A stretch of DNA of 51,191 bases from NCBI GenBank assembly GCA_005223125.1, contig NJBH01000006.1:110316-161506 (forward strand). The letters run 5' to 3'. Source of the stretch: Promethearchaeota archaeon Loki_b32. GTDB lineage: Archaea; Asgardarchaeota; Lokiarchaeia; Sigyniarchaeales; SOKP01. The notes under the pieces were generated by a model. It searched no databases, was not told the DNA's origin, and saw only the letters and a list, made by a program, of their open reading frames with translations. A program made the translations under genes and the position numbers. Shown here one piece after another: positions 44,347 to 49,067 of the stretch; the first letter of the stretch is position 1; each line of letters opens with the position of its first letter.

Positions 44347-44835
44347 ATGACATCCTATCGATTAATTATTGGTATCCTTGTTGGTATCACACTTAGTTTT
44401 TTTACAGTATTTTTCTTTAACATGATGGTTATTGTGGACCAAATTAAATTATTATCAGGGACCAATTTAACAAAAATAGCGTCCTTATTAATAGGAGCAA
44501 ATTTTGATTTCGATATGATCTCTTTTTTCTCTGGATCTCCTTCCATCCTTGGTTTTTTCGCTCCAGAGTTTTTAGCATGGATCTTCATAGGCTATATTAC
44601 AGGAACTATAGCAAAAGGTTTAAAACGAGGCACAATAGCAAGTATTTTGGTAGTAATTGTAGTTTTATTGATTTGGATTATATTAAGCATTATATCTGGT
44701 CAAGATTTAATGGCATTATTTCAAGGAACTCAATTAACTGAAACATTAGGTGGAATAATCAGTGCACTTGTCGGAGTATTACTAGGAGGGTCAGTTGGGG
44801 GATTAGTTAGTGGCCCATATGAAGAATTTTATTAA
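44347..44835 (+). CDS. Small four-helix membrane protein
   Basis: A 162-residue protein with about four hydrophobic helices: residues 6-33, 65-90 (FFAPEFLAWIFIGYITGTIA), 96-117 (IASILVVIVVLLIWIILSII) and a glycine-rich one at 133-155 (GGIISALVGVLLGGSVGGLV). The loops carry few charges. I do not recognise the family. About 230 bases of featureless AT-rich DNA separate it from uS2. It stands alone and its function is unknown. Confidence 0.65.
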   Translation: MTSYRLIIGILVGITLSFFTVFFFNMMVIVDQIKLLSGTNLTKIASLLIGANFDFDMISFFSGSPSILGFFAPEFLAWIFIGYITGTIAKGLKRGTIASILVVIVVLLIWIILSIISGQDLMALFQGTQLTETLGGIISALVGVLLGGSVGGLVSGPYEEFY

Positions 44836-47743: not shown

Positions 47744-48136
47744 ATGAGAGAAATGCGTAAAAATAAGAGATTCGCATACTGCAATAATTGTGAGAAAGAA
47801 ATTTTCAAACCAAAAAGAAGATCATTTGAGAGTATGTATTACAACATCTGGATTCTTGTGATAATCTCTTCATTAGGTTTTGCAATTATCCCTTTTCTAA
47901 TTTATCACTATTACATTGTGAAAAAAAATATTTGTCCTTATTGCCAACATCAATTAGAACTTTACGAAACAAGAGAAGAAATTCCTGATCCAAAAGCTCA
48001 AATCACAAGGATCCTTCAAACTATTGAACAAGAAAAAAATGAAAAAGACAAAGGGTTAAAATGTCCCTTTTGTCAAGAAGAAATAAGTAACCAAGAATCT
48101 ATTTGCCCAAAATGTGGAGCTTCTCTTAAAGAATAA
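47744..48136 (+). CDS. LITAF-like zinc-ribbon membrane protein 1
   Basis: A 130-residue protein. CxxC knuckle C13/C16 (YCNNCEKE) is followed by a hydrophobic stretch at about 34-59 (YNIWILVIISSLGFAIIPFL) and a second knuckle C64/C67 (CPYCQHQ). This is the split zinc ribbon with a membrane-dipping segment seen in LITAF domains. A coil-like linker leads to a second ribbon, C107/C110 and C121/C124 (CPFCQEE; CPKCGASL). First of three tandem genes with the same plan. Function unknown. Confidence 0.6.
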   Translation: MREMRKNKRFAYCNNCEKEIFKPKRRSFESMYYNIWILVIISSLGFAIIPFLIYHYYIVKKNICPYCQHQLELYETREEIPDPKAQITRILQTIEQEKNEKDKGLKCPFCQEEISNQESICPKCGASLKE

Positions 48137-48188
48137 AAATATATAAGAAAATTACCATTCATTATCTTAAAGTCTGAAGTGAAAAAAA

Positions 48189-48566
48189 ATGACAACTTTA
48201 AATCCTACTGGATGGTGCCCCCGGTGCCAGCAGAATGTGTTATTGAAACGCGAAGAAATTGACACGTGTTTAGCAATTATTTTATTGATTTTTACGGCGG
48301 GAATAGGTTTAATAATTTACCTTGCAATACACTATAGTAAAGCAGAGGATAGGTGTATACATTGCAGCGCAAAAATCACTGCTCCTCAAACTCAGAGTCC
48401 TTATATCTCTCAACCTCAAACACAACAAACTTCATATTCTACATCCGTAAATGTTTCTGAAGAAGTAACCGGTTTTAAACCTAGTTATTGTGCACTTTGT
48501 GGAGAAAAATTAGATAGTGGAACAGGTTTTTGCCCAAATTGTGGAAGTCAAATAACAGATAATTAA
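48189..48566 (+). CDS. LITAF-like zinc-ribbon membrane protein 2
   Basis: A 125-residue protein: C10/C13 (GWCPRCQQNVLLK), hydrophobic 27-48 (CLAIILLIFTAGIGLIIYLA), C56/C59 (RCIHCSAK), a Gln/Ser/Thr-rich linker (residues 62-92) and a C-terminal ribbon C101/C104/C115/C118 (YCALCGEKL; FCPNCGSQ). It is closest to the third gene: both have the FTxGIGLxIYxA core and CIHC. A TATA-like atatataa near 48138-48146 may give it its own promoter. Likely a membrane-surface zinc protein. Confidence 0.62.
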   Translation: MTTLNPTGWCPRCQQNVLLKREEIDTCLAIILLIFTAGIGLIIYLAIHYSKAEDRCIHCSAKITAPQTQSPYISQPQTQQTSYSTSVNVSEEVTGFKPSYCALCGEKLDSGTGFCPNCGSQITDN

Positions 48567-48687
48567 TTTCTTTTTATTTCCTTTTCAAGTATTAGAAGCT
48601 GTTTTAATCATTAAATTTAAAAATTGGACTCCACATTTTTTTAATTCAATGAAAATCTCCTTTTAATTAAATTAAAAAAAGCAATTT

Positions 48688-48695
48688 GGAGTGAT
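48688..48695 (+). promoter_or_regulatory. Strong Shine-Dalgarno of LITAF-like gene 3
   Basis: ggagtgat, close to the full complement of an archaeal 16S 3' end, six bases before the ATG at 48702. It fixes that start and supports the gene as real. Confidence 0.7.
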
Positions 48696-48701
48696 AGAAA
48701 A

Positions 48702-49067
48702 ATGTATTGTCCAAAATGTAATAAAAATGTATACACTAAAAAAAATGACTTCAATATTGGATTAGCAATATTTTTAGCAATATTCACTGGAGGGATTGGT
48801 TTATTAATTTATGTTGCTGTTTATTTAGATAGGGAACATAAACCTCGTTGTATTCATTGCGATTCAATCTGTTATGAACAAAGAGAAAATAATCAACCAG
48901 TTTCAAATTATCATGTGATTAGTACTTCTAATCAAGGACAAAGTCAAAAACTCATCTTAGAATCACATAAAAACGAAGAAAGTTCAAAATTCTGTTATAA
49001 TTGTGGATCTGAGCTAGATCAAAGTGAAAATGCTAAATTCTGTGCACTTTGTGGGAGTTCAGCCTAA
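48702..49067 (+). CDS. LITAF-like zinc-ribbon membrane protein 3
   Basis: A 121-residue protein: C3/C6 (YCPKCNKNVYTKK), hydrophobic 19-41 (IGLAIFLAIFTGGIGLLIYV), C50/C53 (RCIHCDS), a polar linker and a C-terminal ribbon C98/C101/C114/C117 (FCYNCGSEL; FCALCGSS). CPKCNKNVYTKK and the spacing to CIHC (43 residues) are very near the LITAF pattern. Alternative reading: a plain single-pass membrane protein with two independent ribbons, but the first ribbon has only two Cys on each side of the helix, which favours the split-ribbon model. Confidence 0.64.
   Translation: MYCPKCNKNVYTKKNDFNIGLAIFLAIFTGGIGLLIYVAVYLDREHKPRCIHCDSICYEQRENNQPVSNYHVISTSNQGQSQKLILESHKNEESSKFCYNCGSELDQSENAKFCALCGSSA

Follow-up and report, generated by a model that had tools for sequence, protein, structure and literature searches.

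We have identified three consecutive ORFs on the plus strand of the window (the whole 51,191-nucleotide stretch of DNA that was analysed), which encode small proteins of 130, 125 and 121 aa, named P1, P2 and P3 (Table 1). All three have the same layout: a CxxC knuckle that starts at residue 3-13 is separated by an uncharged hydrophobic stretch (about 25-30 residues) from another CxxC knuckle, after which a linker leads to a CxxC-CxxC ribbon at the C-terminus. The domain cysteines are C13/C16 and C64/C67 in P1, C10/C13 and C56/C59 in P2, and C3/C6 and C50/C53 in P3, with inner CxxC-to-CxxC gaps of 47, 42 and 43 residues, respectively. The C-terminal C4 ribbons correspond to C107/110/121/124 (P1), C101/104/115/118 (P2) and C98/101/114/117 (P3). 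The linker that leads to them is Q/S/T/P-rich in P2 and charged in P1. A preliminary description of this DNA had reported three consecutive plus-strand genes with the CxxC-hydrophobic-CxxC layout and a second ribbon at the C-terminus; the ORFs and their coordinates proved exact, and a C4 ribbon is present in each of the three proteins. Its suspicion of an Asgard-like genome is borne out by a P1 orthologue with 75% identity in a Candidatus Lokiarchaeota MAG. An Rfam search of the window gave no match. Additionally, positions 44347-44835 of the window encode a small membrane protein (162 aa) of very high hydrophobicity, which is conserved beside an HD-domain-like gene in most of the relatives' loci.

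Table 1 Coordinates (in the window) of the P1-P3 genes and their parts
Feature	Position	Strand	Basis and remarks
P1, class A paralogue, 130 aa	47744..48136	+	ORF; LITAF-like domain followed by a linker predicted to be helical and a C-terminal ribbon
P1 split zinc ribbon, CNNC (47780-47791) ... CPYC (47933-47944)	47780..47944	+	C4 invariant in both family alignments
P1 hydrophobic stretch, predicted helices residues 30-42 and 48-58, break around G45	47834..47920	+	AlphaFold2, block pLDDT ~72-90
P1 C-terminal zinc ribbon, CPFC...CPKC	48062..48115	+	Pfam DZR/zinc-ribbon matches
P2, class B paralogue, 125 aa	48189..48566	+	ORF; PF10601 21.9 bits (under cut-off); family profile 95.6 bits
P2 split zinc ribbon, CPRC ... 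CIHC	48216..48365	+	Family alignment
P2 hydrophobic stretch, predicted helices residues 26-35 and 39-50, interrupted at AGIG	48264..48338	+	AlphaFold2, block pLDDT 88-92
P2 C-terminal zinc ribbon, CALC...CPNC	48489..48542	+	Pfam Zn_Ribbon_1; small zinc ribbons matched in structure searches
P3, class C paralogue, 121 aa	48702..49067	+	ORF; PF10601 14.1 bits only; family profile 80.1 bits
P3 split zinc ribbon, CPKC ... CIHC	48708..48860	+	Family alignment
P3 hydrophobic stretch, central GGIG	48750..48827	+	Sequence; 45-domain alignment
P3 C-terminal zinc ribbon, CYNC...CALC	48993..49052	+	Pfam Zn_Ribbon_1, 26.6 bits (cut-off 25)

P1-P3 are real genes under purifying selection. The layout is not due to chance, because orthologues are found throughout the family with their order and neighbours preserved, the dN/dS ratio across the three genes against two relatives is 0.12-0.22 (0.17-0.22 for P1 alone) and the domain cysteines are invariant. 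The invariance of these four cysteines, seen in alignments of 45 and 92 sequences, is partly a product of selection, as family members were collected with a CxxC-gap-CxxC filter. A central glycine of the hydrophobic stretch is shared by at least 90% of the family sequences, Lys/Arg residues occur on both flanks of the stretch in all classes, the inner gap ranges from 40 to 47 residues and the mean length of the hydrophobic core is 18-27 residues, depending on the class.

A family profile built from 45 diverse domains matched in all 65 genomes of the host's Lokiarchaeota family (hereafter f1), with 1-8 matches per genome, and in another family within that order, f3 (3/8 genomes). No convincing full-length match was found outside f1 and f3 in the 228 Asgard genomes searched, and by profile the family appears with confidence only in Lokiarchaeales. 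The tandem array itself, for which the preliminary description had proposed an Asgard-wide survey, is conserved across f1, and a tandem pair occurs in two of the f3 genomes. In the genomes inspected, the array adjoins tmk (divergent) on one side and aroE/tyrA or another gene (convergent) on the other; the array is therefore an old, vertically inherited unit. The orientation of these neighbours offers no operon or functional partner at the locus, and neither an ESCRT gene nor any other telling neighbour was found beside the array in the loci inspected. One genus of the family has a conserved small ORF of 72-84 aa on the opposite strand, between the two tandem genes (L061:4315-4569, L062, L067 and L075).

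Altogether, the host genome carries five members of the family: P1-P3, a domain-only protein of 88 aa (L001, class D) and a protein of 154 aa (L002, class E), the classes being set by gap length and motif. The extra C-terminal ribbon is present in four of these five paralogue lines. P2 and P3 are 34% identical to each other, while P1 is only 17-20% identical to either of them. In a tree of 73 columns, the P2 and P3 lines fall together in a single clade (100/100), and class A, to which P1 belongs, joins the dispersed class E with a support of 93/70, which is below the threshold of the tree tool. An equal tandem expansion of three sisters was consequently rejected: of the earlier suggestion of a family expanded in tandem, the conserved array stands, but its three genes are unequally related, with P1 nearer to a dispersed line. 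Class D (about 85 aa, the domain alone; L001:1492-1758 and L083) supplies most of the highest LITAF scores, and beside its gene are a conserved small zinc-ribbon gene and then an apparent archaeal S-adenosylmethionine synthetase gene. The class E gene (L002:207-671 and L084) is divergent from a MiaB-like methylthiotransferase gene in several genomes. On contig C49 of the host genome (L120:3555-4010, minus strand), we also observed a protein of 151 aa with CxxC, a longer hydrophobic region resembling two helices, CCxxC and a C-terminal ribbon. Its gene is divergent from that of a Ras-like small GTPase, and it is perhaps a two-helix relative of the LITAF-like family.

The affiliation with LITAF claimed in the preliminary description is supported in part. 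The Pfam family PF10601 (zf-LITAF-like, curated cut-off 23.8 bits) ranks first among Pfam families for the domain, being matched at E<=0.01 by 41 of the 45 diverse members (best 6.2e-8), with the next family matched by 7/45; as these members are mutually related, they do not amount to 45 independent tests. P1 scores 30.8 bits as a whole protein and 24.0 bits as the domain alone, with an alignment spanning positions 6-69 of 70, whereas P2 and P3 fall below the cut-off. Shuffles in which residues were permuted within segments, with the CxxC knuckles and the hydrophobic block kept in place, still matched at E<=0.01 in 10/45 cases, and about the curated cut-off was reached by 22/45 members versus 2/45 shuffles. 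The layout alone therefore earns a part of the score, and residues beyond the layout add to it. In a profile-profile alignment, a check proposed at the outset, hhalign aligned the family with human LITAF over 63 columns at a probability of 77%, but 6/200 layout shuffles of LITAF scored as high (p ~0.03); the agreement of the human sequence used with the published one (PMC5142333) covers its length and four Cys positions. Among genomes, PF10601 was matched over the cut-off in 51/228 Asgard genomes (all f1), 2 of the 596 bacterial genomes, which represent three phyla, and 0/14 controls. The bacterial matches include a protein of 84-85 aa encoded beside a ferredoxin-like gene in two genomes of one phylum (L101:1471-1728 and L102:1492-1746; 31-32 bits, over the cut-off); another small bacterial protein scored 22.8 bits. 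The human LITAF domain, used as query against viral contigs, found no relatives, and neither P1 nor the family profile had a relevant match by sequence among solved structures. In the literature searched, of which coverage was partial, no mention of LITAF in archaea, Asgards included, or in bacteria was found.

AlphaFold2 was run on the protein chains of P1 and P2 alone, with 92 and 68 aligned sequences. In both, the hydrophobic stretch is predicted as a pair of helices, each 10-13 residues long, that are separated at the conserved glycine; a shallow hairpin would require such a break. Short strands are predicted at each knuckle (block pLDDT 72-92 in the hydrophobic stretch and first knuckle; pTM of the whole model 0.40). 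A normal transmembrane helix, which the earlier proposal had named as the contrary outcome, is thus not what was predicted: the models show two helices with a break between them and no single spanning one. For the P1 model, the best-ranked fold in the PDB was aIF2-gamma (66 columns, 1.5-1.6 A, E 1.6); the extent of this match would fit, suggestively only, a single ribbon formed from both knuckles and aligned with the zinc knuckle of aIF2-gamma. Fold searches of the PDB and of viral models gave no match at E<=0.001; the best viral match, A0A2Z4GYZ6 (E 2.7e-3), has no name and a poor rmsd, and was set aside.

Human LITAF is monotopic and binds one zinc (PMC5095921, PMC5142333), and we favour, on the strength of the models, a domain that works like LITAF, i.e., as a zinc-clamped monotopic anchor. 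The shallow hairpin is preferred because of the predicted helix break, the aIF2-gamma match, the Lys/Arg residues on both flanks and the accord with the measured topology and zinc binding of LITAF. The uncharged stretch of 25-30 residues counts against it, being long enough for an ordinary transmembrane helix. P1-P3 could accordingly be single-span proteins with cysteine knuckles on both sides of the membrane: the N-terminal CxxC would be external or engaged in a disulphide or an inter-subunit zinc site, with the other CxxC and the C-terminal ribbon on the inside. Prokaryotes commonly have proteins that combine a zinc ribbon with a single helix, and the class means of the core (18-27 residues) would suffice for one crossing. 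We nevertheless consider this arrangement unlikely, as the helix is interrupted at the conserved glycine in the AlphaFold2 models, positive residues occur on both sides of the stretch and the gap length is kept within 40-47. Moreover, all four cysteines are co-conserved in every paralogue, which is the same argument as Ho et al. used for LITAF (PMC5142333).

With a probability of roughly 0.55, we thus regard P1-P3 as three of the host's five members of a set of Lokiarchaeales small membrane proteins that are built like LITAF, are anchored by a zinc-clamped shallow hairpin and serve as paralogous membrane-surface adaptors. Besides the length of the stretch, the whole-model pTM of 0.40, the shuffles that still match PF10601, the lack of an ESCRT gene or other telling neighbour in the loci inspected and the near absence of PSAP/PPxY motifs speak against this view. 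The two CxxC knuckles would jointly bind one zinc at the cytoplasmic face, and the bound zinc would clamp the hydrophobic stretch as a hairpin of two short helices with a glycine break, seated in the inner leaflet rather than crossing the membrane. In P1-P3, the linker would display the second zinc ribbon, which most likely docks partner proteins; ribbon and linker together would most simply represent a docking arm. As adaptors of the membrane surface, the three paralogues may also favour curvature, and human LITAF is known to support the curvature of endosomal membranes (PMC8353527).

The mechanism of the domain has to be kept apart from its ancestry, i.e., from the question of whether the family and eukaryotic LITAF share a common descent or reached the same layout by convergence, and our confidence in the answers to this question is expressed on a separate scale from that for the hairpin and the single span. 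Judged by sequence, shared ancestry is plausible but not established. We consider it fairly probable that the family is a convergent look-alike with a LITAF-like mechanism, which originated inside Lokiarchaeales, from a generic membrane protein with a zinc ribbon, and has no link to the eukaryotic gene. Its confinement with confidence to Lokiarchaeales (all of f1, a minority of f3, nothing convincing in other Asgard genomes) points in this direction, as do the scores obtained by shuffles and by some bacterial proteins, and an hhalign score to human LITAF that beats just 194/200 layout shuffles. Against convergence, real members outscore the shuffles about tenfold at the cut-off, and the Pfam profile alignment covers the whole domain.

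That the family is truly homologous to eukaryotic LITAF, either by descent from an Asgard ancestor or by transfer between Lokiarchaeales and eukaryotes, appears doubtful. Homology would account for nearly half of the diverse members reaching about the Pfam cut-off and for the contrast between Asgard genomes on the one hand and bacterial and control genomes on the other; in the hhalign alignment, an IPF motif of P1 also lies near the position of the IPF of LITAF. It is weakened by the restriction to one order and by the lack of both the His that precedes the second CxxC in LITAF and the N-terminal proline-rich region, and the domain is too short for a reliable tree. Rather improbable is the further reading that a homologous zinc-clamped monotopic anchor existed in Asgards before endosomes, in the form of paralogous membrane-surface or curvature adaptors. 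This eukaryogenesis reading is possible and is not favoured, because Lokiarchaeales are the only Asgard lineage in which the family was found with confidence; for the same reason, the bearing on the origin of eukaryotic membrane adaptors that had been claimed for this locus is speculative.

The Lokiarchaeal group is known for its ESCRT homologues and small GTPases. With a conserved and expanded LITAF-like set in every f1 genome, the idea of a shallow membrane anchor clamped by zinc would become testable in prokaryotes; a bearing of this set on eukaryogenesis would require that its homology to eukaryotic LITAF be established.

Published descriptions present LITAF domains as eukaryotic (PMC5142333, PMC5095921); in LITAF/SIMPLE, two strictly conserved CxxC pairs enclose a hydrophobic region of about 22 residues. 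The archaeal family resembles LITAF/SIMPLE and CDIP1 (PF10601) in the succession of CxxC, a hydrophobic stretch of about 22-27 residues and CxxC, with an inner gap of 40-48 residues (48 in human LITAF, C99 to C148; PMC5142333), and in a predicted non-spanning anchor, both flanks of which are expected to be cytoplasmic. Unlike in these proteins, where the domain is C-terminal, it is located at the N-terminus in the archaeal family, four of five paralogue lines of which carry the extra C-terminal ribbon, and the genes form a tandem array. The centre of the hydrophobic stretch is G-x-G in the archaeal proteins versus a Cys-rich core in LITAF/SIMPLE and CDIP1, and the HxCPxC histidine of LITAF is missing in the window proteins. 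The proline-rich N-terminal region of LITAF, with PSAP and PPxY, binds ESCRT-I and Nedd4 ligases; the archaeal family has no such region, and a motif search of 109 family sequences found no P[ST]AP and one PPxY (PPSY), so that docking to ESCRT or Nedd4 through these motifs was rejected. BRI3 (PF10164) is a weak match for P2 (18.9 bits, under the cut-off of 25.9) and is matched by only 4/45 members. Generic DZR (PF12773) and Zn_Ribbon_1 (PF13240) modules resemble the C-terminal ribbon of P1-P3 and explain this module only; they differ from the N-terminal domain, which a membrane segment divides in two.
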